The notes beneath the pieces are model-generated. The model had not been told where the DNA came from. It searched no databases and saw only the letters and a list, made by a program, of their open reading frames with translations. Source: Pseudomonadales bacterium (lineage in GTDB: Bacteria; Pseudomonadota; Gammaproteobacteria; Pseudomonadales; Pseudohongiellaceae). Taken from it: DNA of 45,409 nucleotides. The stretch spans positions 1-45,409 of the forward strand of contig JAJDYJ010000003.1 in NCBI GenBank assembly GCA_022822865.1, written 5' to 3'. A program made the position numbers and the translations under genes. Shown here in pieces: positions 7,473 to 24,074 of the stretch. Every line of letters begins with the position of its first letter. Positions within the stretch are counted from its first letter, which is position 1.

Positions 7473-7520
7473 ATGGGGTGAGGCGCCAAATTGAGAATTG
7501 CTGGAACGAGAGGACCTTCA

Positions 7521-7548
7521 TTGCCCGCAAGTTGCGGAGTGCTATAAT
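7521..7548 (+). promoter_or_regulatory. Putative sigma-70 promoter of the efflux operon
   Basis: TTGCCC (7521-7526) and a perfect TATAAT (7543-7548) are separated by 16 bases. Transcription would start near 7555, about 35 bases before the chosen GTG start at 7589. The -35 box matches consensus at 4 of 6 positions. Prediction from sequence only. Confidence 0.6.
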
Positions 7549-7588
7549 TTTTCGTCGTTTCGAAAGGGCAACCCAAGGATTCGCCCGG

Positions 7589-9085
7589 GTGAAGATCAGT
7601 CCAACAAGAATAACGTTCGCGCTGGCGGCGGGGGTCTCGATCGCCGGTTGCGCACTCCCGGATTTCCGGCTTCCTCCCGCCCCGGAACCCGCCGTCGAAT
7701 TGCAGAACCAGTTCGCCGCCGCCGAAAACACCGCGGCCCCGGAGCCCCTGGCGTGGTGGGAATCCTTCGCCGATCCGGTACTCAACCAGGTCGTGGAAGC
7801 CGTGCTCGAATCCAATTTCGACCTCGCCCAAGCCGTGGCGCGGGTCGATCAGGCCCGTGCGCGAGCACGCATCGCCGATGCCGTGGCCTACCCTCTGGTC
7901 AATCCCGTCGCGGGTATCGTGGATTTCGATATTCCCACCAATGCGGGAATCGGCGCGCAACTCGACGAACTCGGACTCGGTTCAGACTTGACGGAAGTTT
8001 TCGGTTTATCGCTGCCCGACCGCGTGGGCCTGACGACATACACCTTCGGCGCGGAATTCGCATACGAAGCAGACTTCTGGGGCCGCAACCGCAACACCAG
8101 GCTCGCCGCCGGCGCGCAGCGACTTGCTTCGGAATCGGATTATGTCGCCGCCAGAATCTCGGTGCTCGCGGAAACCGTCCGCACCTACCTGGAACTCGTG
8201 GACCTGCGGCGGCAACGTGGGCTGGCGCTTGAGAACATCGAAATTCTTCAGGAACGCGAGGCGTTGGCGCAGTCTCGCTATGAAAGCGGATTGATCGACG
8301 CACTGGGTCTGTACGCCATGCGCCGGGCCCTGCGCGACGCGCGCGCGGGACTGCCGCGACTCGAAGCCGGGCTGGCCGAAGCCGAAGCGCGGCTGTGGAT
8401 TCTGCTCGGAGGATTTCGGGACGACATCGCGGGCTCGCTGCCTGACGCCTTGTCCATCGCCGGCAGCGGCGACCCGGCGCCCGCGGGAATACCCGCCGAT
8501 TTGCTCATTCAGCGTCCCGACGTCGCCGGCGCCAGGCAGCGCATGGAAGCGGCCCGTTTCGCTCTCGGCGCCAGACGTGCCGAATTGTTGCCGGCGCTGT
8601 CCCTGTCAGGCTCGATCGGCCTGCAGGCCACCGATGCCGGCGACTGGTTCGATCCAGATCAATGGTTCCGCAATCTCAGCGTCAATCTGCTGGGGCCGGC
8701 GATCCAGGGATCGCGCCTGCGCGATAATGTCGAACTGGCCGAAGCGCAATTGAATGAAGCCGCGGCCGCTTACGGGAGTTCCGTGGTAACCGCTGTCAAT
8801 GAGGTCGAGGCCGCCCTGTCGGGCCTCGAAGCCGGCCGCCGCCGTCACGATGTACTGGATTCCTTTCTTGACGAAGCCCGGGCCGAATCGGGATTACAGG
8901 GCGAAAGGTATTCTGCCGGCATCGGCAGTTATGAAGAAGTGCTGAGCGCGGCGCAGGTCCTCGTCGGCGCCAGAGCGGCGCTTTCCGCGGCGGAGCGCGA
9001 TCTCGGTTTCGCCCGGCTGGCCCTGCATCGGGCTCTTGGCGGCGCCTGGACCGCCGATGATTTGGAATACTTGTCGAACGAGTGA
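7589..9085 (+). CDS. Outer-membrane efflux lipoprotein (TolC/OprM/NodT family)
   Basis: This protein of 498 residues is the outer-membrane channel of a tripartite efflux pump. I chose GTG 7589 because AAGGAT (7575-7580) lies a suitable distance upstream and the product then starts with a compact lipoprotein signal, ALAAGVSIAGC, with the lipidated Cys at about residue 21. After it come the usual Pro-rich linker and ...LAWWESFADPVLNQVVEAVL, the classic NodT/OprM opening. Two repeats of the OEP domain follow (about 60-260 and 270-480), with alpha-helical Ala/Glu/Arg-rich barrel segments. The C-terminus overlaps the next gene by 4 bases (GTGA), so translation is coupled to the HlyD-type adaptor. 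Confidence 0.9.
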   Translation: MKISPTRITFALAAGVSIAGCALPDFRLPPAPEPAVELQNQFAAAENTAAPEPLAWWESFADPVLNQVVEAVLESNFDLAQAVARVDQARARARIADAVAYPLVNPVAGIVDFDIPTNAGIGAQLDELGLGSDLTEVFGLSLPDRVGLTTYTFGAEFAYEADFWGRNRNTRLAAGAQRLASESDYVAARISVLAETVRTYLELVDLRRQRGLALENIEILQEREALAQSRYESGLIDALGLYAMRRALRDARAGLPRLEAGLAEAEARLWILLGGFRDDIAGSLPDALSIAGSGDPAPAGIPADLLIQRPDVAGARQRMEAARFALGARRAELLPALSLSGSIGLQATDAGDWFDPDQWFRNLSVNLLGPAIQGSRLRDNVELAEAQLNEAAAAYGSSVVTAVNEVEAALSGLEAGRRRHDVLDSFLDEARAESGLQGERYSAGIGSYEEVLSAAQVLVGARAALSAAERDLGFARLALHRALGGAWTADDLEYLSNE

Positions 9086-10296
9086 ACGCCATGGGAAGAG
9101 TTACCGGATTTTTAGCCGCCCTGGTCATTGTCGCCGCATCGGTGGCCCTGGCAATGTTTCTGATTTCGCTGGCGCCGGAGCCGGAAAGCCGCGAGCTCCC
9201 GCCCCAGATACCTTTTGTTCTGACCGGCACGGTGACTTCATCGCCTGGCGCCATTCCCGTTTTCGGTTCCGGAACCGTGCGGCCCGCCCGGGAAGTCAAT
9301 ATTGCGCCGCAAGTGGGCGGCAGGGTCGAAAGCGTAAACCCTGCGTTCCGCAGCGGCGGCCGGGTGGAAGCGGGGCAGACGCTGTTCGAAATCGAAGAAG
9401 AGGATTACCGGTATCGGGTCGAAGTCGCCTTGGCCGATGTGGCGGCCAGGCAGGTTGCCTTGCTTGAAGCGCGGGAGCAAGCCGAAATTGCAACGGCGGA
9501 ATATGAAAGCTTCTCGCGGCGGCAAACCGGCGATGCGCTCTCGGAACCAAGCCCGCTGACCTTGCGGCAGCCTCAATTGCAGGCTGCCGAGGCCGCGCTT
9601 GCGCGCGATGAAGCCCGGCTCGCCGAGGCCCGGCTGGCGTTGTCGCGAACCGTGATTACGGCCCCATTCGATGGTTTCGTGCGCGCGGAATCGGTCGATG
9701 CCGGCCAGATCGTGGCGCCCGGACAATCGGTCGGCAGCCTGTTTGCGGCGGATGCGGCGGAAATCCTGGTAGCCCTGCCCGACAGTGACGCCGCGCTGAT
9801 TCCCGGACTCTGGGAACTTCGCGCGGGAGACGACTCGCAACAGGTGGCGGCGCGCGTAATCGCCGAATACGGGGAGCAGGGATTCGCCTGGAGCGGCTAT
9901 GTCGACCGGGCCGAAGCTGCGGTCGATTCGCAGACGAGAACGGTCGACGTGGTCATACGCGTGCCGGATCCCTTTACCGCGGGCGCCCCGGTCAACGGCC
10001 CGGCCGCCGGCGGCAATCCGCCCTTGCTTGTCGGCGAATACGTCGATGTCGAGATCGAGGGCATCGTGATGGCGAACATTTACCGGATTCCCCGCGCGGC
10101 GCTGCAGGCCGGCAACGAGGTCTGGGTGGTAAACGGCGACGGCGCGGTCGGCATTGTTCCTGTTCGCATCTTCCAGCGCGCCGACGATGAGGCTTACGTC
10201 ACCGGTTCCCTGCAGTCCGGCCAGCCGGTTATCACCGGCGGCCTGCAATTCGCCGTCGAAGGCATGCGGGTGCTGACCGAGGCCCGGCCGCTGTAA
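9082..10296 (+). CDS. Periplasmic adaptor of RND efflux pump (HlyD/MFP family)
   Basis: A 404-residue membrane-fusion protein that links the inner-membrane pump to the outer-membrane channel. It has one N-terminal membrane anchor (residues about 5-30, FLAALVIVAASVALAMFLIS), a split lipoyl/barrel-sandwich domain opening with VNIAPQVGGRVESVNP, and a helical hairpin at about 110-190 rich in Ala/Glu/Arg. The second lipoyl half contains APFDGFVRAESVDAGQIV; beta-barrel and membrane-proximal domains reach the C-terminus. The predicted GTG start at 9082 overlaps the upstream stop. ATG 9091 three codons later is an equally good start. The stop overlaps the pump gene start (TAATG). Confidence 0.92.
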   Translation: MNAMGRVTGFLAALVIVAASVALAMFLISLAPEPESRELPPQIPFVLTGTVTSSPGAIPVFGSGTVRPAREVNIAPQVGGRVESVNPAFRSGGRVEAGQTLFEIEEEDYRYRVEVALADVAARQVALLEAREQAEIATAEYESFSRRQTGDALSEPSPLTLRQPQLQAAEAALARDEARLAEARLALSRTVITAPFDGFVRAESVDAGQIVAPGQSVGSLFAADAAEILVALPDSDAALIPGLWELRAGDDSQQVAARVIAEYGEQGFAWSGYVDRAEAAVDSQTRTVDVVIRVPDPFTAGAPVNGPAAGGNPPLLVGEYVDVEIEGIVMANIYRIPRAALQAGNEVWVVNGDGAVGIVPVRIFQRADDEAYVTGSLQSGQPVITGGLQFAVEGMRVLTEARPL

Positions 10297-13200
10297 TGAA
10301 CGCCAACGATCCTTACCAGGGAGAGCCGCCGGGCCCCATCGCCTACATGGCGAGCAACGGTGTTGCCGCCAATCTGCTGATGCTGGTGATCCTCGCCGCG
10401 GGGCTCGTCTCCCTGACCGGGCTCGAACGGGAATCGTGGCCAGTTCTGGACTTTTATACCATCGAAGTTTCCATGGCCTATCCCGGCGCGAACCCGGAAG
10501 AAATCGAGGAATCCATCGTCATCAAGATCGAGGACCAGGTCAGCGGGCTGGAAGATGTCAATACGGTGCGGTCGGTGGCCGCGCCGGGCATGGCTTCCGT
10601 GCGCGTTGAAATGAATTCCGGCGTCGATATGGGCCAGGCGCTCAGCGACGTGGAATCGGCGGTGGCCAGGATCCAGACTTTTCCCGCCAACGCCGAGCGG
10701 CCGGAAATCCGCGAGATGACCAGCAATCAGAGCATCATACGCATGATTCTCTACGGCGACATGTCCGAGCGATCGCTGAAGGAACTTGCCCATCGGATCG
10801 AAGACGAGTTTACCGCCTTGCCCGAAGTCTCCCTGGCCGAGGTCAGCGGCATACGCGAATACGAAATTTCCATCGAAGTTCCGGGGCAGCGGCTACGCGC
10901 CCTCGGCCTGACCCTGGACGATATCGCGAATACCGTTCGCGCCAATTCGCTGGACCTTTCCGCCGGCAGCATCGATACCAGCGAAGCCCAGGTGCGCGTG
11001 CGGACGCTGGGGCAGCGCTATGTGCAACAGGAATTCGAGGACATCGTGCTCCTGGCCCAGGACGACGGAGCCGTGTTGCGGCTCGGCGATATAGCTACGG
11101 TCCGCGACGAGTTTCAGGATATCGACATCATCGTGCGGCACAGGAATCAACCGGCGGTTTTCATCGAAATCTACCGTTCTGAAAGCGAACAGGTCATGGA
11201 CGTCGCCACAGCGGTGTACGAACACCTCGCCGACGCGATCGAACCCTCGCTGCCCGAAGGCGCCGGCATCGGCATCTGGAATGACGAATCGGGAGCTTAT
11301 TCCGAACGCGCCGCCCTGTTGCTGAAGAACGGCTCACTCGGCTTGCTGCTGGTATTCGCCGTGCTGGCGCTGTTCCTGCAGATCAGGCTGGCGATCTGGG
11401 TAACCGTGGGCCTGGCCACAGCCTTTGTCGGCGCGCTCGCGGTCATGTTGCTGTTCGATGTTGCCCTTCACGCGATTTCCCTGTTCATCTTCGTACTGGC
11501 GATCGGCATTATCGTCGACGATGCCATCGTCACGGCGGACAGTATCTACAAGGAACGCAACCAGGGATTGCCCGGCGTAGCCGCGGCGATTCGCGGAACG
11601 CGCAGAATCAGGATTCCGTTGACCTTTGCCGTGCTGACTTCGATCGCGGCATTCATTCCCCTGCTTTTCATTCCCGGCGCAATCGGCGATGTCTGGCGGG
11701 CTTTGCCGATTATTGTCATCGGTATGCTGGTGATCTCCCTGGTGGAATCGCTGTTCATACTGCCCGCTCACTTGTCGCATCTGCCGGGCCCGGATTGGCG
11801 CCCGACCAACCTGGTCGACCGGTTTCTCTCCGATACGCAGGGCATGGTGGATCGGGGACTGCAAGCCTTTGTCGAAGGACCGCTTGACCGGGCGCTCAAA
11901 TTCACTACTGCCCAGCCGCTAGTGATCATCGCAGGCGCCATCGGCGCTCTCATCGTTAGCGTTTCGCTAGTGCCCGCGGGCCTGATCGCGGTCCTATTCG
12001 CCGATGTGGTGGAAGGCGATTCCGTTACCGCCTCGCTGGAGATGCCCGAAGGAACCACAGCCTCACGAACCTGGGAAGTCGCCAGGGAACTGGAAGCCTC
12101 CGGTCTGCGAGTGATCGAGCGTTTCTCGGCCGAACAGCCGGATGGGTCTCCCGACCTGCTCGACGGGTCCATGCTCGTAGTCGGCCAACGGCCCAGACTC
12201 GAAGGCGGCGGCGTGGCGTCGCAACCCAGCCTGAACCCGGCGGCCAATCTCGGCACCGTGGAATTCAAGTTGATCAGCGCCCAGGACAGGGACATAACCA
12301 CCAGGGAAGTTGCGCAGGCCTGGCGCGACGAAGTGGGCACTCTTTCTCAGGCGCGCGGGGTCGTTTTCAGTGGCGACCTGATCGATTTCGGCAATCCCAT
12401 TGAAGCGATATTGTCGCATCCGGATCCCGCGCAGCTTGTCGAGCACGCGGAATCCGTAGTCGCCAGCTTGCGCGATATTGAAGGCGTATTCGACATCCGT
12501 TCGGATCACACGCCGGGCGTGCGAGAGATTCAATTGGAATTGCGGCCCGAGGCCCGCACCTTCGGCTTGAGCTTGCAGGATCTGGCCGGCCAGGCGCGCG
12601 CGGCATTCTTTGGCGCCGAGGCCTTGCGCGTACAGCGGGGCGGAGAAGAGGTTCGCGTTTACGCCCGATTGCCCGAGGCGGAACGCAATGCGATAACCGA
12701 CATCGAGGAATACATCATCCGCACGCCCTCTGGCGCCGAGGTTCCCTTGCGGCAGGTTGCCTCGATGAAATCGGGCAATTCCCCGCCGGCGATCGCGCGC
12801 CGGGACGAGCAACGCGTCGTCACCGTTGCCGGGGATATCGACACCGACGTGATTTCGGCGGGAGAGGCCAACGGCATACTCACCGGCACGATTCTGGCGA
12901 ATCTGATCGAGGAAGACCCGAACCTTAGTTATATCCTCGGTGGCGAGCAACAGGTGCAAGCCGATTCGCTCGGCTCGCTGTATCGCGGCTTCGCGCTGGC
13001 CATGCTGCTGATCTTCGCCTTGCTGGCGATTCCGCTGCGTTCCTACACCAAGCCTTTCATCATCATGTCGATCATTCCCTTCGGCCTGATCGGGGTGATG
13101 TTCGGACATTTCATTTTGCAGGTGCCGGTCAGCGCCACCACGATCATGGGGGTTCTGGGGCTCAGCGGAGTGATAGTCAACGACTCGCTGGTGATGGTCG

Positions 13201-13493
13201 ACCTCATCGATCAGAAGTTGCGGGACGGGGCCTCTCCACGCAACGCGGTCATCGAGGGCGCCAAGGGTCGATTCCGGCCGATCCTGCTGACTTCGGTAAC
13301 GACCTTCATGGGCTTCACGCCGCTGATTCTCGACCGCTCCATCCAGGCGCAGTTCATGATGCCGTTCGCTGCCTCGATCGGCGTAGGCATTTTGATCACC
13401 ACCTTCGTCCTGATGCTCCTTGTGCCGGCAATCTCGATCATGCATCTGGGCCTGATAAAACCGAAGGGGCAGCCCTTGCCGGTCACAGGTTAG
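10296..13493 (+). CDS. RND efflux pump, inner-membrane permease (AcrB/HAE1-like)
   Basis: A 1,065-residue proton-driven exporter, close to AcrB length (about 1,049). The architecture is standard: one TM segment (about 25-45), a large periplasmic loop, six TM segments, a second periplasmic loop (about 560-860) and five more TM segments. The TM4 proton-relay pair is Asp408-Asp409 in GIIVDDAIVTAD. In TM10 the segment is GLSGVIVNDSLVMVD, so the lysine that AcrB has at the equivalent GLSAKNAIL segment is absent. This is seen in several AcrB relatives and points away from a strict AcrB orthologue. ATG 10296 overlaps the upstream stop. Substrates could be drugs, lipids or a product of the neighbouring P450 locus. 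Confidence 0.93.
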   Translation: MNANDPYQGEPPGPIAYMASNGVAANLLMLVILAAGLVSLTGLERESWPVLDFYTIEVSMAYPGANPEEIEESIVIKIEDQVSGLEDVNTVRSVAAPGMASVRVEMNSGVDMGQALSDVESAVARIQTFPANAERPEIREMTSNQSIIRMILYGDMSERSLKELAHRIEDEFTALPEVSLAEVSGIREYEISIEVPGQRLRALGLTLDDIANTVRANSLDLSAGSIDTSEAQVRVRTLGQRYVQQEFEDIVLLAQDDGAVLRLGDIATVRDEFQDIDIIVRHRNQPAVFIEIYRSESEQVMDVATAVYEHLADAIEPSLPEGAGIGIWNDESGAYSERAALLLKNGSLGLLLVFAVLALFLQIRLAIWVTVGLATAFVGALAVMLLFDVALHAISLFIFVLAIGIIVDDAIVTADSIYKERNQGLPGVAAAIRGTRRIRIPLTFAVLTSIAAFIPLLFIPGAIGDVWRALPIIVIGMLVISLVESLFILPAHLSHLPGPDWRPTNLVDRFLSDTQGMVDRGLQAFVEGPLDRALKFTTAQPLVIIAGAIGALIVSVSLVPAGLIAVLFADVVEGDSVTASLEMPEGTTASRTWEVARELEASGLRVIERFSAEQPDGSPDLLDGSMLVVGQRPRLEGGGVASQPSLNPAANLGTVEFKLISAQDRDITTREVAQAWRDEVGTLSQARGVVFSGDLIDFGNPIEAILSHPDPAQLVEHAESVVASLRDIEGVFDIRSDHTPGVREIQLELRPEARTFGLSLQDLAGQARAAFFGAEALRVQRGGEEVRVYARLPEAERNAITDIEEYIIRTPSGAEVPLRQVASMKSGNSPPAIARRDEQRVVTVAGDIDTDVISAGEANGILTGTILANLIEEDPNLSYILGGEQQVQADSLGSLYRGFALAMLLIFALLAIPLRSYTKPFIIMSIIPFGLIGVMFGHFILQVPVSATTIMGVLGLSGVIVNDSLVMVDLIDQKLRDGASPRNAVIEGAKGRFRPILLTSVTTFMGFTPLILDRSIQAQFMMPFAASIGVGILITTFVLMLLVPAISIMHLGLIKPKGQPLPVTG

Positions 13494-13589: not shown

Positions 13590-15593
13590 ATGACGTTTGC
13601 CGAAGAAGTACTGCTCTTGCTGCTCGATGAAAACACCGGGTACTTCGCTCCCGTGCCCGAGTGGAAAATGTCCTGCGCTTTCGCCGGCGGGGTTCTCATG
13701 GACCTTGCCTTGAAGAATCGAATCGATTCGGACCTTGAGACTCTCACCGTCATCAGCAGGCAGCCCACCGGAGACGACATTCTCGACCCGGTACTTGAGG
13801 AAATCGCCCAGGAGAAGAAAACGCACAACGCCCGGTTCTGGGTCGAACGGATCGCCGCCAGGGCCGAAAGCATCAGCGACAAGGCATTCACTCGCCTGGT
13901 CAAGATGGGAATTCTCGACTTCGACTCCGCCGGTTTCTGGTCGCTTTCGAAGAAGGTCTCCCGAACCGGCCGTTATCCGCTTGTTGACGGCGCACCCGGA
14001 GAGGAGATCAAACGACGGATAACCCGCATTCTGGTAACCGATGAGATTCCCGAACCGCGGGACGTCGCCATCATTGGGCTGTTGAACAATTGCGATGGCG
14101 TGCGCACCTTGCTCGAACCCGAAGAGCTCGAAGGCGCCGGGCAAAGAATCGAATTGCTCAGTGGAATGGACCTGATCGGGCGCACGATCGGCGAAGCGGT
14201 GCGCAGTTCCTATCGGCCGCCGGAAGCCTTGCGCACTGGCCGCCGCAAGAAACTGCCATCGATCGGCTTGTTCGATCTCCTGCGCTCGCGTCCGATGCGG
14301 CAGGGAAATCTGCCCAAGTTCTTTGCCGAACAGGCCAAAAAACACGGACCCGTCTTCGAAATCAACGCCGGCGGCCGCAAGCTGGTCGTTCTTGCCAGTC
14401 AGGAACTGAATCTCTGGACCGGTAAAAAGGGACGACTACTGCTTCGGACCCGGGATTATCTCGAGGGATTCCAGCAGGAATGGGGGACGGCGCGGTCGAT
14501 CGCCAGCATGGACGGCGCCGATCATTTTCGCATGCGCAAGGCCATGCGCGACGGCGTTTCCCGAGTAGTTGTCGAGGATCGGATTCACGATGTGTTCGCT
14601 CTTGCCAGGGAAACCTTCAGCAGCTGGGAAGTAGACAGCGTGATTCCCGTGGAACAATCCTGCCAGCGCCTGATCGGCGCGCAGATCGCCGAATTGAGCT
14701 TGAGCTTCGTGCCGAGTCATGAACTGCTCGACGATCTGCTGAAGTTCGAATATCGCGCGCTGTTGGTACACGTATTCGGCATTATGCCTGAATTTACGCT
14801 GCATACGCCGCGGATGAAGAAATACAAGCAAAGCGTGCTCGATCTGTATGCGCAGATTCATGCGACGCATACTCCGGCGCAGCGTGCGGGCAAGCGGCGC
14901 GACCTGGCTGACGATCTCCTGGAATTGCATCAATCGGACCCGCAATTCCTGCCCGAGACCGACCTGGGATTTACCTTTATCGCGGCGATCATCGCCGGCC
15001 ACTATACCGGCAGCGCCATGGCGTTTTCGATCTACGAAATGCTGGCGAATCCCGAGCTGCACGAACGCATCGTCGCCGAGGCCGACGCCCTGTTCGAAAA
15101 CGGAGAGCCGGAGGCGGAGGCGATGACGCCGGAAGCGCTCGATGTCACACATCGATTTGCCATGGAAGTGTTGCGGCTGCATCCGGTGATCAATGCGCAT
15201 CGACGCACCGCGATGAACTCCTTCGATATCGATGGTATGCCCATACCGGCCTATAGCGAGATCCTGATCGCGTTCACGGCAACGCATTTCTTCGAGAAAC
15301 ATTTCAAGGAACCGGACAAGTTCGATATAGACCGCTTCCTGCCGCCCCGGAACGAACACCATCAGACGGGCGCCTTCGTGCCCTTCGGCACGGGCACCCA
15401 TACTTGCGGCGGAAGGCGCTGGACGGAGTTTCAACTGGTGCTGAACATTTTGCTGGTCGCGCGATATCTGGACATGGAAATGGTCCCGAAGAATTACAAG
15501 CTGAAAATCAGTCCGTTCCCCAAGCTTAGCCCCAGGAAAAATTTCAGGATCAGGATAAAAGGCTACCGGCGTCCGTTAGCCGCTGCGGAATAA
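13590..15593 (+). CDS. GPP34 domain-cytochrome P450 fusion protein
   Basis: A 667-residue two-domain protein. Residues 1-215 match the GPP34 (GOLPH3-like) family: it opens TFAEEVLLLLLDENTG, then FAGGVLMDLALKNRI, LVKMGILDFDS and TGRYPLVDG followed by EEIKRRITRIL. Residues about 235-660 are a P450. The I-helix is A469-G-H-Y-T473 followed by GS, reminiscent of the AGxHTS of CYP51 sterol demethylases, with Tyr where many P450s have an acid. E526 and R529 form the ExxR pair (MEVLRLHP). The heme loop is FGTGTHTCGG with Cys606 as the iron ligand. GPP34 domains bind acidic or phosphoinositide membranes in eukaryotes; here one may dock a soluble P450 to a membrane (inference). The gene is convergent with the Rieske gene, 26 bases apart. 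No redox partner is nearby. Confidence 0.9.
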   Translation: MTFAEEVLLLLLDENTGYFAPVPEWKMSCAFAGGVLMDLALKNRIDSDLETLTVISRQPTGDDILDPVLEEIAQEKKTHNARFWVERIAARAESISDKAFTRLVKMGILDFDSAGFWSLSKKVSRTGRYPLVDGAPGEEIKRRITRILVTDEIPEPRDVAIIGLLNNCDGVRTLLEPEELEGAGQRIELLSGMDLIGRTIGEAVRSSYRPPEALRTGRRKKLPSIGLFDLLRSRPMRQGNLPKFFAEQAKKHGPVFEINAGGRKLVVLASQELNLWTGKKGRLLLRTRDYLEGFQQEWGTARSIASMDGADHFRMRKAMRDGVSRVVVEDRIHDVFALARETFSSWEVDSVIPVEQSCQRLIGAQIAELSLSFVPSHELLDDLLKFEYRALLVHVFGIMPEFTLHTPRMKKYKQSVLDLYAQIHATHTPAQRAGKRRDLADDLLELHQSDPQFLPETDLGFTFIAAIIAGHYTGSAMAFSIYEMLANPELHERIVAEADALFENGEPEAEAMTPEALDVTHRFAMEVLRLHPVINAHRRTAMNSFDIDGMPIPAYSEILIAFTATHFFEKHFKEPDKFDIDRFLPPRNEHHQTGAFVPFGTGTHTCGGRRWTEFQLVLNILLVARYLDMEMVPKNYKLKISPFPKLSPRKNFRIRIKGYRRPLAAAE

Positions 15594-15619
15594 CCGGCTT
15601 CCTGCCGATCTGCGCGGAA

Positions 15620-16642
15620 TCAGTCCCGCGTCTCGCGCTCCGGATAGAATTGCTTGCACCAGCGGCGGTACAGCCCGATTTCGCCGTCGGACCGGCTCAG
15701 AACCGGCGTCGTCCTGTAGCGCTTGCGGCTCCAGATTCTCTCGTCCTGCGCCACGTCGAGCTTCTGGTTGGTGAGCATGAACTGGTTGATAACCGGCGCG
15801 CGCCAACGTGGCGGCAGAAAGCGCAAGCCCATGAAAAACCGTTTCGGTTTGCGTATTTCGCGCACCTGGCAGGCAAGCGTAAGGTAGATTTCCCTTCCGT
15901 CGATGGGGGTGGCAAGCACCCACAGGCGCAGGTCCATCTCGATGGTGTTTTCCCGTACTTCAACGAAGGAGTAACCCACGCCGTGGACGTGAGTCACCGC
16001 GTCGACGTCGTTCATCATTTTCCAGATATTGGCTATCCGGCGAATTCGCGTGAAATGAAACTTGCTGAGCAGATACGCGCCGTCGACTTCCACTTCGCCG
16101 TTCGGATAGACATTGTCGTAACCGTGCACGTAAAGCAGGTGGGCGATATCGACCGAGTTTTCGGCGGTTTCCTGGGGATGTCCCGGGAAGCGGAATCGAC
16201 GATAGCCGATGGAGCACCAATCCGGGCCTTGCGGCACGTCCGGCAGGCGCCATTGCGGCGGCCTGCCTTCGAATCCCCACCAGACGAAGATCATGCCGGC
16301 GATTTCCCGGGTCTCGTACAACTTCAGCCGCGCATTGGGCGGAGGCGGGGCGAATGGCGTCGCCACGCATTTTCCCGAAGCGTCGAACTCGAAGCCGTGG
16401 AAGGGACAAACCAGGCAACCGTCGCGCACCTTGCCGCCGGCCCTGGGTCCGAGATGCGAGCCGAGATGAGGACAATATGCGTCCGCGACGCAGATATTGC
16501 CATCGGCGTCGCACCAGATGACGATTTCCTCGCCCATCCAGGTGCGCTCGATCAGCTTCTTGGCCGTTACGGTCTTGCGGTCGGTCAGGAAATACCAGCC
16601 TTCCGGAAATGGCGGCAGTTCTTTCGCCCTTTTCAAGCTCAC
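15620..16642 (-). CDS. Rieske non-heme iron oxygenase, possible sterol oxygenase/desaturase
   Basis: A 340-residue oxygenase, last gene of the methyltransferase operon. The N-terminal Rieske domain binds a 2Fe-2S cluster through Cys57-Pro-His59 and Cys79-Pro-Phe-His82 (CPHLGSHLG and CPFHGFEF). The catalytic domain has the mononuclear iron motif Asn162-x2-Asp165-x2-His168-x4-His173 in ENSVDIAHLLYVH. That wording resembles the DAF-36/Neverland cholesterol 7-desaturases and KshA-like steroid hydroxylases more than aromatic-ring dioxygenases. Together with the sterol methyltransferase this suggests a sterol or steroid substrate (inference). Sterol C-4 demethylation by a Rieske enzyme is another option. 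The start is GTG at 16642 with a weak ribosome binding site, 38 bases after the aminotransferase stop. No ferredoxin or reductase lies alongside. Confidence 0.88.
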   Translation of the reverse strand: MSLKRAKELPPFPEGWYFLTDRKTVTAKKLIERTWMGEEIVIWCDADGNICVADAYCPHLGSHLGPRAGGKVRDGCLVCPFHGFEFDASGKCVATPFAPPPPNARLKLYETREIAGMIFVWWGFEGRPPQWRLPDVPQGPDWCSIGYRRFRFPGHPQETAENSVDIAHLLYVHGYDNVYPNGEVEVDGAYLLSKFHFTRIRRIANIWKMMNDVDAVTHVHGVGYSFVEVRENTIEMDLRLWVLATPIDGREIYLTLACQVREIRKPKRFFMGLRFLPPRWRAPVINQFMLTNQKLDVAQDERIWSRKRYRTTPVLSRSDGEIGLYRRWCKQFYPERETRD

Positions 16643-16680
16643 GATTCCGTGTCGATCGTTCTTGTCTTATGCCGTTCCGA

Positions 16681-17826
16681 TCATCCGTACAGCCTCTTGT
16701 ACGTCTGTACGAAATAACGCATCTCGTCGGGTTTCGCCATGCTCAGCCGCATCCAGTTCGTGAAAGGCGGGAACGGTCTGCCGACCTGGATGTTCTCTTC
16801 CAGAAACCGGGCCTGGACTTCCTCGATGGGATGTCCGGTTTCGATAAAGCTGAAATTGGCGTTCGACTCGATGAATTTGATGCCGGCGGAACGCAGGTAG
16901 CTCTCGACGATGTCGAGAGATTCCCGCGCAGTGCGCAGCACGAAATTCGAATGTTCCGCGTCCTGGTAGCTGGCCTCGGCGGCGCGAATGCCCACGATGT
17001 TTTGCAAACCGGTCTGCCGGTCGGTGATTTCCCGCGCCAGTTCGGGGTGGGAAAAGGCGAAACCGACGCGCAAACCGGCCAGGCCGTGAATCTTCGAAGC
17101 CGTGCGCGTGATGATCAGGTTGCGCTGGCCATTGCGTACCAGGTCCATCATGGTGCTGTAATCGGGATTGTCGACGAACTCGTGATAGGCCTCGTCGAGA
17201 AACACCATGCGGTCCCGGGCGATTTCGACGATGAAATCCCGCAGCGCGTTCTTTTCGATAATATTCGGTATCGGGTTGTTGGGATTGCAGAGATAGACTA
17301 GCCTGGTGTCGGCGCGGATGGCGCTTGCCATCGCTTCCAGATCGGTTTTCATCTCGCCGTTCACCGGCACGCGGATCACCTCGGTGCCGTTGGCTTCCGC
17401 ATAGTCCGGCAGATCCTCGAAGGTGGGATGGGGGATGACGATGGAACCGCCGCGCATGCCCGCGAGCAGTCCGCCCACTTTCAGCAATTCCGCCGAACCC
17501 GCGCCGAGGCTGATGTGGTCACGGCCGATATTCTGCTGGCGGCCGATCAGTTCCGGCAGGGGATTACCGTAAAAGGAATACAGATTGGCTTCGTCAATGG
17601 CGTTGTAGATCGCGCGCAGGGCGACGCGCGACGGCCCCCAGGGATTCTCGTTGGAACTCATGCGGATGATGTAGTCCGGCTTGGGAATCACATCTTGCGC
17701 ATGTGCGCTTTGCATCAATTCGAGGCGGGGCAGGAACCGGCCGCCCGGAATCGACTGCAAGGCGTTGGCGGCGAACAGGGCCGATCCGCCGAGCAATACT
17801 TGTCTTCTGCTTACTCTGCCTGACAT
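16681..17826 (-). CDS. Tat-exported PLP-dependent aminotransferase (HisC-like, class I/II)
   Basis: A 381-residue aminotransferase. I start it at ATG 17826, preceded by GGGAGA, which gives a clean twin-arginine signal: VSRRQVLLGGSALFAANAL. An upstream in-frame ATG at 17895 lacks a ribosome site. The mature fold is type I: SSNENPWGPS near the N-terminus, GAGSAELLK for PLP phosphate binding, CNPNNPIPN where HisC proteins usually have NPNNPTG, and DEAYHEF. The Schiff-base lysine is Lys245 in ASKIHGLAGLRVGFAF. HisC-like aminotransferases transfer amino groups to 2-oxo or imidazole substrates, but a Tat-exported member would not serve cytoplasmic histidine synthesis. It lies between the sterol methyltransferase (84 bases upstream) and the Rieske oxygenase, so it may act on the same product. 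The substrate is unknown. Confidence 0.88.
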   Translation of the reverse strand: MSGRVSRRQVLLGGSALFAANALQSIPGGRFLPRLELMQSAHAQDVIPKPDYIIRMSSNENPWGPSRVALRAIYNAIDEANLYSFYGNPLPELIGRQQNIGRDHISLGAGSAELLKVGGLLAGMRGGSIVIPHPTFEDLPDYAEANGTEVIRVPVNGEMKTDLEAMASAIRADTRLVYLCNPNNPIPNIIEKNALRDFIVEIARDRMVFLDEAYHEFVDNPDYSTMMDLVRNGQRNLIITRTASKIHGLAGLRVGFAFSHPELAREITDRQTGLQNIVGIRAAEASYQDAEHSNFVLRTARESLDIVESYLRSAGIKFIESNANFSFIETGHPIEEVQARFLEENIQVGRPFPPFTNWMRLSMAKPDEMRYFVQTYKRLYG

Positions 17827-17910
17827 GAATCCGTCTCCCAATCCAGCGTTGGCGATGCGGTTCAAGTCTACCATGTAGTCAATATGGCCAACCAAGACTC
17901 CGCGCTGCGT

Positions 17911-18942
17911 TTATTCCGGTTTGCGGGCGAGGAAACAGTAGAGCGGGGTAAAAATTCCCGACTTGCCGCCCATGACATAAGCGTCGGCGGTTCGATTCAT
18001 CATGCGGACAACAGCGGTCGAGCCTTTCGGAACGAATCTGCATGCCTCGGCCAGCCGCAAGCCGCCGATCATCATCTTGATGCCCCACGGCGTGCGGCGA
18101 AATGCGCTTCTCAACGTGCCGCCGAGACTTTCCATGGGTCGATACCAGGGTGTGCCGGGGCCATCCACTGCGCCTCTGTTCGTCGCCTCGACGATTTCGA
18201 ATCCGGCGGCTTCGAGCGCGCGATTCACTTCGGAGAACGTGGCGATGCCGTCAAGCGCGATTCCCTGCATGAGTTCATCCCTGGCGGTCCGGTCCCGACT
18301 GCTTTCCGGATCGAACTTGTCCGTCATGCACATCTCCTGGCCCCAGAACAGGGCTCCAGGCTTCAGCACACGATATATCTGCTCGAACGCGCCCTGCTTG
18401 TCCGGCGCGTGGCACGTGGACTCGATCGCGTAACCCGCATCGAACGAGTTGGCCTCGATGGAACTCATATCCATGAAGTTGCAGCGCAGGTACTCCGCCA
18501 GATGATCGAGTCCCTCTTCGCTGTTCCTTTGCCGGGCCTTGTTGAGCTGTTGTTCATTGTTGTTTAGGCAGAGAACCCTGGCGCCGGACTCGCGGGCGAC
18601 CCGCCGCATCGGGCCGCCGTTGCCGCAGCCAACGTCGATTACCCGCATGTCTTCGCGCAGTTCCAGCTTCTCGATCATCAGGCGCTGATGGCGAACGATG
18701 GATTCCTCCAGTGTCTCATCGGGCCGCAACGGCGCGAAGTGCAGGGACTCGTTCCACCCGAACTGCATGAATTCGTTGCACAGATCGTAATAGTCGTTGA
18801 CCGTTTCCGTGTGATCATAGGCCTCACCACCGGTATCCGCCCGCTTGCTTCTCTCCATCCAGCCGCTGAAACGCGTCAGGCGGCCCGAGACGTCCCAGCC
18901 CCGATACGCATTCCACAGAGGTTCGGATAATTTCTTCAACAT
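17911..18942 (-). CDS. Sterol 24-C-methyltransferase-like SAM methyltransferase
   Basis: A 343-residue enzyme that, by family, transfers methyl from SAM to C-24 of a sterol side chain. Visible SMT signatures are the aromatic region I FGWNESLHFAP (61-71), SAM motif I VIDVGCGNGGPMRR (101-114), CLNNNEQQ (125-132), YAIESTCHAP (171-180) and RVLKPG (191-196). The C-terminal sterol-MT domain ends MGGKSGIFTPLYCFLARKP. The yeast ERG6 segment YEYGWGSSFHF corresponds to MQFGWNESLHF here, so region I is diverged and specificity may differ. ATG 18942 follows AAGGAGCG at ideal spacing; the upstream ATG at 18993 has none. First gene of an operon with the aminotransferase and Rieske oxygenase. The yeast comparison is from memory; the family call is firm, the exact sterol is not. 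Confidence 0.9.
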   Translation of the reverse strand: MLKKLSEPLWNAYRGWDVSGRLTRFSGWMERSKRADTGGEAYDHTETVNDYYDLCNEFMQFGWNESLHFAPLRPDETLEESIVRHQRLMIEKLELREDMRVIDVGCGNGGPMRRVARESGARVLCLNNNEQQLNKARQRNSEEGLDHLAEYLRCNFMDMSSIEANSFDAGYAIESTCHAPDKQGAFEQIYRVLKPGALFWGQEMCMTDKFDPESSRDRTARDELMQGIALDGIATFSEVNRALEAAGFEIVEATNRGAVDGPGTPWYRPMESLGGTLRSAFRRTPWGIKMMIGGLRLAEACRFVPKGSTAVVRMMNRTADAYVMGGKSGIFTPLYCFLARKPE

Positions 18943-18992: not shown

Positions 18993-19000
18993 AGTATAAT
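18993..19000. promoter_or_regulatory. Possible bidirectional -10 element between the methyltransferase operon and ggt
   Basis: In the 87-base divergent spacer, AGTATAAT contains TATAAT on the plus strand (18995-19000, toward the transpeptidase) and TATACT on the minus strand (18998 to 18993, toward the methyltransferase). Starts from either would leave short leaders of about 25 and 45 bases. No good -35 box is visible for either direction. Prediction only. Confidence 0.45.
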
Positions 19001-23645: not shown

Positions 23646-23696
23646 TTCCCGCTCGAAACGGCTTACGGGCCGCCTATGCGGACTTGCTTGACATCA

Positions 23697-24074
23697 ATGA
23701 ATTCACCTGAGTTTCAAAATAAATTGATTCGAGACCGCGCGCGGAAGCTTCGTCGCGAGCAAACCACTGCGGAGATGTTGTTGTGGCGCCAACTTCGCAA
23801 TCGGCGATTGGCGGGAGAAAAGTTTCGCAGACAGCATCCGATCGACCCCTATATTGTCGACTTTGTCTGCCTTTCCCGGAGATTGATTATTGAGCTTGAC
23901 GGTGGTCAGCACGCGGAGCTGCGGAAGGCATACGATCTGAAGAGGGATAATTTTCTGCGTTCCAGGGGCTTCGGGATACTCAGATTCTGGAACAATGACG
24001 TGTTTGACAACCTCGAAGGGGTTCTCGGCAGAATTCAGCGGGAATTGGAGACTATTATAGCTCGCGGCTCTTGA
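23697..24074 (+). CDS. DUF559 single-domain endonuclease-like protein (VSR/PD-(D/E)XK type)
   Basis: A 125-residue protein from ATG 23697; ATG 23676 is a weaker in-frame alternative. The family signature is plain: LRREQTTAEMLLWRQLRNRR, then KFRRQHPIDPYIVDFVC and LIIELDGGQHAE, with the acidic/Gln residues of a VSR-like nuclease core, and a C-terminal LRSRGFGILRFWNNDV. DUF559 proteins are predicted nucleases of unknown role. The gene is small, stands alone and is followed 19 bases later by a family 2 repeat pair. It is more AT-rich than its neighbours, which hints at transfer (inference). Confidence 0.88.
   Translation: MNSPEFQNKLIRDRARKLRREQTTAEMLLWRQLRNRRLAGEKFRRQHPIDPYIVDFVCLSRRLIIELDGGQHAELRKAYDLKRDNFLRSRGFGILRFWNNDVFDNLEGVLGRIQRELETIIARGS

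Follow-up and report, generated by a model that had tools for sequence, protein, structure and literature searches.

A divergent sterol methyltransferase homologue linked across bacterial phyla to a GPP34-P450 fusion, a Rieske oxygenase and an RND-superfamily pump: a candidate sterol tailoring-and-export module

What does a homologue of the sterol methyltransferases (SMTs) do in a bacterium, beside two oxygenases and a pump? The question is raised by contig C39 of a Pseudomonadales bacterium genome (GCA_022822865.1; 3.2 Mb, 105 contigs, 96% complete), the whole 45,409 nucleotides of which are called the window here. A first-pass annotation had reported four genes as a candidate sterol-tailoring locus, and all four were found in the window where it had placed them. 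The operon that it described, with an aminotransferase between the SMT and a Rieske oxygenase, is confirmed by a minus-strand run in that order with gaps of 15 and 38 bases, and the P450 gene on the plus strand does converge on this operon, ending 26 bases from the Rieske stop codon. The conserved unit also includes a GPP34 domain on the P450 and the pump genes upstream, both of which had been overlooked. Judging from the gene families and their linkage, we consider it reasonably probable that the window carries a horizontally spread module for sterol tailoring and export.

The strong part of the case is that these genes form a conserved unit in several phyla. A scan of GTDB genomes with the window SMT returned 115 stretches, 114 of them encoding relatives, and the best 80 (58-82% identity) were used; the titles of these metagenome-assembled genomes (MAGs) name Gammaproteobacteria, Alphaproteobacteria, Chloroflexi/SAR202/Dehalococcoidia, Gemmatimonadetes, Acidobacteria, Acidimicrobiia, Dadabacteria and others. 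Linkage was counted by tblastn because the longest-open-reading-frame caller chose antisense frames in GC-rich loci. The GPP34-P450 was found in 50 and the Rieske oxygenase in 43 of the 80 loci, and both accompanied the SMT in 33 of the 52 full-length loci (those of at least 20.9 kb), covering four named phyla (Pseudomonadota 10 of 15, Chloroflexota 17 of 21, Gemmatimonadota 3 of 3 and Acidobacteriota 2 of 2, with one of six loci lacking a phylum label, 0 of 1 in Dadabacteria and 0 of 4 in Actinomycetota). Comparison of gene order with related genomes, a check that the first-pass annotation had proposed, thus found the P450 and Rieske neighbourhood conserved. A pump was also present in 30 of these 33 loci (Pseudomonadota 8, Chloroflexota 17, Gemmatimonadota 3, Acidobacteriota 2). 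The HisC-like pyridoxal-phosphate aminotransferase (16681..17895, minus strand; twin-arginine-like N-terminus by eye) and a gamma-glutamyltranspeptidase were linked to the SMT in just 3 of the 80 loci; the aminotransferase is thus a local passenger outside the conserved module and was dropped as a pathway enzyme. These two genes behave as an explanation by chance, in which unrelated genes simply adjoin, would have it, but for the SMT, P450, Rieske oxygenase and pump that explanation is contradicted by linkage in four named phyla, and we find it hardly credible. The three enzyme genes are also under constraint, with dN/dS (Nei-Gojobori) of 0.15-0.26 for the SMT (three pairs), 0.08-0.14 for the Rieske oxygenase (three pairs) and 0.08-0.12 for the P450 (two pairs).

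Co-occurrence was examined in 40 of the 80 SMT-bearing genomes, hand-chosen for spread over the list. A full GPP34-P450 was present in 38 (with one in-frame stop in the best match of each of G062 and G064), with none found in G061 and a stand-alone GPP34 only in G090; the Rieske oxygenase was present in 37 (absent from G064, G070 and G090, partial in G089 and in two pieces in G088), and all three genes occurred together in 36 of the 40. Among 369 evenly drawn Gammaproteobacteria, with at most five and three candidates scored per genome, the SMT (E <= 1e-40) was found in one, the genome of the window itself (hereafter the own genome), and the full fusion in two, the own genome and G276; G340 and G436 matched the P450 part only. 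The class to which G084 belongs was sampled with 197 genomes, 19 of which matched the SMT at E <= 1e-40, 16 at 58-64% identity and three only at 38-42%. In 58 relatives, the own genome included, the closest other SMTs were those of G029, G018 and G032 (44-45%) and G021 (35%), all of which fall with canonical SMTs in the tree described below. The titles name no hosts, and we infer that the carriers are marine sponge symbionts: the MAG prefixes MPM and MPN presumably denote Aplysina and SB06 Ircinia (the latter not confirmed by a search of papers). Sponge genera that appear in the available text of PMC8163846 agree with the prefixes RHO, COS, IRC and APA.

The SMT (17911..18942, minus strand) has an S-adenosylmethionine-binding methyltransferase domain (Methyltransf_11) and a C-terminal Sterol_MT_C domain (PF08498, 17914..18105, minus strand; 63.4 bits against a Pfam cut-off of 21.7). 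Its stop lies at 17911, and the open frame extends past the ATG at 18942 to a TTG at 18993; the ATG is the likelier start because most listed homologues align from residue 18 or 19 on. Sterol_MT_C was present in 46 of 46 aligned SMT rows, and a profile search found it twice in the own genome but in none of 14 control genomes. In a quick tree one branch (SH-aLRT 96) split 32 SMT rows from 15 other methyltransferases, a set with no sarcosine or tocopherol reference enzyme, so that the protein groups with SMTs. A second quick tree (118 rows, of which 13 were dropped as duplicates or by choice and two were too short; long branches flagged) separated 80 window-type SMTs from 23 further SMTs, taken from these genomes and from relatives, by one branch (SH-aLRT 100), the nearest kin of the window SMT being L036 (Gammaproteobacteria), L050 and L037 (both labelled Pseudohongiella). 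The two groups differ at fixed positions. In region I all 80 window-type rows carry Met at a position that is Tyr or Phe in the 23 others, within (Y/F)E(Y/F)GW in 23 of 23, and the region I Glu is kept in 3 of 80 as against 23 of 23; in region IV the window type reads GQEMC in 80 of 80 and the others in none of 23, with Tyr or Phe at the Gln position in 20 and an aromatic residue at the Met position in all 23. Canonical SMTs are recognised by the region I signature YEYGWG and an aromatic region IV, and work on the yeast and plant enzymes has placed these positions in the lining of the sterol pocket, where they set the number of methyls added. For this reason an altered acceptor or methylation position is likely in the GQEM-type SMT, to judge from its residues. 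Of the sterol 24-C-methyltransferase homologue first proposed, the C-terminal sterol domain stands, but the 24-C identity is not established, as both canonical signatures are missing.

The neighbouring oxygenase (15620..16642, minus strand) is by sequence a KshA-type Rieske protein with its iron-ligand motifs kept. It has Pfam Rieske and KshA_C (95.3 bits) domains, two Cys/His cluster motifs and a 2-His-1-Asp site, and the Cys-His, Cys-His and Asn-Asp-His-His motifs are invariant in 36 aligned rows. It scored 38.9 bits on the SdmA model NF052579, far from the cut-off of 600. The first-pass annotation had likened its iron motif to that of DAF-36/Neverland, whereas KshA is its best solved relative (3.9e-36). 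Steroid catabolism or detoxification, with a true 3-ketosteroid 9alpha-hydroxylase in a sterol degradation locus, would account for this; the available text of PMC5790920 describes KshA clusters of divergent sequence in sponge MAGs, part of them lacking any further genes for degradation. The likeness to KshA (PDB 4qdc, 2zyl) lies in the two domains and the ligand motifs, whereas the window protein is linked to an SMT and a pump, and no ring-degradation gene was found among the neighbour families that were identified (most small clusters were not identified, and KstD and HsaC were not searched for in the genome). Since methyl addition and linkage to an export-class pump are also unlike the catabolic pattern, we regard degradation as quite improbable. 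Elsewhere in the own genome, beside a canonical SMT on contig C50, a KshA_C oxygenase homologue (L003:4029-4958) has lost the 2Fe-2S segment with its frame still open. The same loss is seen in an L137 homologue (open frame, 84% identical, dN/dS 0.18) and in L034 (apparent frameshift near the start), an L139 homologue carries stops, and the Acidobacteria homologues L145 and L146 retain the cluster motifs.

The second oxygenase (13590..15593, plus strand) is a fusion of a GPP34 (GOLPH3-like) domain (residues 4-205, 114.8 bits) and a cytochrome P450 domain (residues 403-644, 126.4 bits). All 46 aligned family rows contain the two domains, and in them the ExxR motif and the haem cysteine are invariant. 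The I-helix AGHYTGS had been said to recall CYP51. The string is present, but AGHYT is found in 5 of the 46 rows, the window included, and is no hallmark, and full-length similarity fails, the CYP51 match (1.9e-24) covering residues 404-637 alone behind a GPP34 N-terminus; CYP51 identity was rejected. In the near relative L036 a copy of the AS-x-Y-x-G type (ASIYLG) stands in the same place on the opposite strand and looks like a replacement. The fusion was modelled with pLDDT 83.7, and its GPP34 domain aligned weakly with human GOLPH3 and yeast Vps74 (3kn1, 2zii; E 0.0025-0.0044). These proteins share the GPP34 Pfam family with the window protein, which differs in being bacterial and fused to a P450; the domain would serve to tether the P450 to the membrane. 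In an Acidobacteria MAG (L182:7958-11865) a GPP34-P450 paralogue adjoins a squalene-hopene cyclase, with 33 bases between the matched stretches. In G276 (L181) a GPP34-P450 (62%) adjoins counterparts (60-63%) of the RND, HlyD and outer-membrane genes of the window, and no SMT match was found in that genome at E <= 1e-40. Many genomes of L036-L113 have GPP34-domain matches that stand alone, for the most part in frames of about 216-350 amino acids.

The P450 gene starts 96 bases past the inner-membrane subunit of an AcrB/MexB-class RND pump (10296..13493, Pfam ACR_tran), on the same plus strand as its HlyD-type periplasmic adaptor (9082..10296, from a domain search) and outer-membrane factor (7478..9085, OEP, 126 bits). 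The frames of outer-membrane factor and adaptor overlap by 4 bases, and those of adaptor and RND subunit by 1 base. By tblastn, RND homologues at 63-90% identity were found in 26 of the 80 SMT loci, the adaptor in 14 and the outer-membrane factor in 7, and among SMT loci the RND pump is confined to Pseudomonadota, Gemmatimonadota and Acidobacteriota. Chloroflexota loci hold instead an MMPL protein of about 827 residues (19 loci, all of that phylum; 20 by clustering). One representative matched Patched and Sterol-sensing models, and a profile of 17 matched solved MmpL5, HpnN, MmpL3, Dispatched, NPC1-related and Patched chains. These phyla differ in membrane type, some having an outer membrane and others not, and we read the RND and MMPL pumps as counterparts for the two kinds of cell. 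As far as the available text of PMC10942540 goes, the Methylococcus Bst transporters, together with HpnN, NPC1 and Patched, are RND-superfamily lipid transporters, a role in which the Chloroflexota MMPL proteins would match them; the latter nevertheless score far under the equivalog cut-offs (one gave 35.2 bits against 1400 for BstA), and the window pump is of the AcrB/MexB class. Further along the window, a small open reading frame (23676-24074; DUF559/Vsr-like by eye) lies downstream of an FAD/4Fe-4S oxidase assigned by Pfam.

Where would a sterol substrate come from? The absence of a cyclase and squalene epoxidase from the window had led the first-pass annotation to suggest a pathway split in the genome, and this proved right. 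Contig C78 encodes, in order, an SdmB-like dehydrogenase, an SdmA-like Rieske protein, an ERG4/ERG24 reductase, CYP51, a squalene-monooxygenase-oxidosqualene-cyclase (SQMO-OSC) fusion bearing DCTAE (L009:6509-9913), a squalene/phytoene-synthase family protein and an amine-oxidase-family flavoprotein, homologues of which lie near the GQEM-type SMT in 24 of the 80 loci. Of the enzymes that were to be looked for, both squalene monooxygenase and oxidosqualene cyclase (OSC) are thus present as one fusion, and SdmA- and SdmB-like proteins exist, but at 412.2 and 303 bits both stay under the NCBIfam cut-offs of 600. The C78 P450 matches CYP51 chains over its length at 2.1e-105, the best being PDB 6mcw, which we take to be a Methylococcus protein. 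A second SQMO-OSC lies beside a second GPP34-P450 on contig C47 (L010, 5 kb), both interrupted by a stop or frameshift; that the genome has no cyclase is ruled out. From these genes the own cell plausibly makes sterols. Symbionts of Ircinia sponges are reported, in the accessible text of PMC9531527 (Kelly et al. 2022), to carry ERG24-CYP51-LSS clusters, which span 10 phyla and 11 classes and for which there is evidence of horizontal transfer; C78, outside the window, contains this gene run, whereas the window module is another gene set.

With such a cluster in the same genome, the window might belong to ordinary 24-alkyl-sterol synthesis, in which a plain 24-SMT ends the pathway that the cell runs de novo, and the P450 and Rieske protein act as further oxidases of the nucleus or side chain. 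Sponge-symbiont bacterial SMTs do alkylate C-24 in vitro, according to the available text of Brown et al. 2023 (PMC10070321). Against this, the genome has a second, more canonical SMT on C50, canonical SMTs adjoin SQMO-OSC genes in L134 and L135, the two signatures are missing in every window-type row, and most carriers gave no OSC match; we judge this explanation unlikely, though worth keeping in view.

The other carriers differ from the own genome in this respect. Full-length SQMO-OSC fusions, 59-87% identical to the own one and all with DCTAE, were found in 8 of the 40 genomes, and the remaining 32 gave no OSC match. By motif, ten of these 32 have a squalene-hopene-type cyclase, and the other 22 gave no match to any cyclase; the 11 non-fused cyclases classified in the ten genomes were all of squalene-hopene type, the classification leaving out non-fused matches in the fusion-bearing G060, G068, G071, G082 and G090. 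An ERG4/ERG24 family reductase was found in 30 of the 40, including 22 of the 32, and in none of the 14 controls, and at least two Sterol_MT_C matches in 20 of the 40 (the second in G084 being a fragment). The Dadabacteria genome G069 (L206) holds a relic-looking sterol cluster, in which a reductase and parts of the Rieske and CYP51 genes remain and no cyclase was found. Given the carriers without OSC and these remnants, the module seems often to outlive, or to be independent of, de novo synthesis, and since most carriers gave no OSC match it probably works there on sterol from outside the cell, supplied by the host or neighbouring symbionts.

Several observations weigh against a sterol module. 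The SMT lacks the canonical signatures, and its altered region I and IV residues could reflect a non-sterol acceptor. Its best NCBIfam match, far under the cut-off, is a sarcosine/dimethylglycine methyltransferase, and the PDB folds nearest to its model (pLDDT 85.3) belong to O- and N-methyltransferases of small molecules; C-methyltransferases acting on geranyl and farnesyl diphosphate come lower in this search, which does not separate O- from C-methylation. In 41 of the 46 P450 rows the I-helix reads AS-x-Y-x-G and its threonine is lost, so the chemistry may be unusual. The nearest solved chains to the RND pump are multidrug efflux pumps, a general drug-efflux class. The gene neighbourhood is also not universal, as 14 of the 52 full-length loci have no P450, Rieske, flavoprotein or aminotransferase gene nearby and Actinomycetota show linkage in 0 of 7 loci. 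Habitat confounds the co-occurrence control, in which the 40 look like sponge MAGs and the 369 are mixed, although the cross-phylum linkage is independent of this; gaps in MAGs could hide genes (three of the 40, G061, G069 and G090, measure 1.3-1.7 Mb), and some titles may be misbinned.

The lack of an OSC match fits a non-sterol substrate too. A different polycyclic isoprenoid (a hopanoid or other triterpenoid) or an unrelated lipid, with the pump serving resistance or secretion of that substrate, would suit the altered SMT motifs, the drug-efflux class of the pump, the squalene-hopene cyclase beside the L182 paralogue and the ten OSC-less genomes that hold such cyclases. It fits less well with the retention of Sterol_MT_C in all aligned rows, the KshA_C oxygenase, the 22 OSC-less genomes without any cyclase match and the sterol-family reductases in 22 of the 32, and we give it the limited weight of an improbable but serious alternative.

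The sterol tailoring-and-export module, by comparison, draws support from the physical linkage across phyla of families associated with sterols and steroids. The KshA-type Rieske protein and the presumably membrane-tethered GPP34-P450 would oxidise a sterol or close triterpenoid, the divergent SMT would methylate the same sterol, and a dedicated RND-superfamily transporter would move the product out of the cytoplasmic membrane, as a tripartite pump in diderms and, in Chloroflexota, as one MMPL protein resembling Patched and HpnN. The cell of the own genome could supply the substrate itself through C78. We infer the substrate class, the direction of transport, the order of the steps, the positions methylated or oxidised, the tethering by GPP34 and the horizontal transfer.

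Bacterial SMTs, fused squalene monooxygenase/OSC proteins and steroid gene clusters of sponge symbionts are already published. The SMTs of Brown et al. 2023, clustered with sterol genes and found in sponge metagenomes, resemble the window type in their methyltransferase and C-terminal domains and differ, as far as the main text of PMC10070321 goes, in their region I and IV residues and in lacking its P450-fusion, Rieske and pump neighbourhood and its predominance in genomes without an OSC match; the main text, with which alone the comparison was made, nowhere uses the words Rieske, P450, transporter or fusion. A fused SMO/OSC does appear in its methods. The module, the GPP34-P450 fusion and the GQEM SMT subtype were not found in the literature searched, which held few subscription papers, no bioRxiv preprints and no supplements.

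A subfamily of SMTs whose active site has changed at fixed positions, linked to a pump and two oxygenases and found mostly in genomes that yielded no cyclase, makes sterol processing by symbionts testable with few genes, and the GPP34-P450 fusion would be a new way to place a P450 at a bacterial membrane. The origin of side-chain-modified sponge sterols bears, moreover, on the earliest chemical fossils that have been attributed to animals. Enzymes that methylate sterols at C-26 are still undiscovered according to the accessible text of Brown et al. 2023. It is a long shot that the GQEM-type SMT is the missing enzyme for another sterol methylation, such as a terminal, C-26-type one, instead of a 24-SMT, and that within one sponge the module is common to bacteria of several phyla, which convert sterols of the host or of neighbours into sponge-type sterols and return them through dedicated pumps; if this were true, symbionts would co-write the sterol biomarkers that are assigned to animals.

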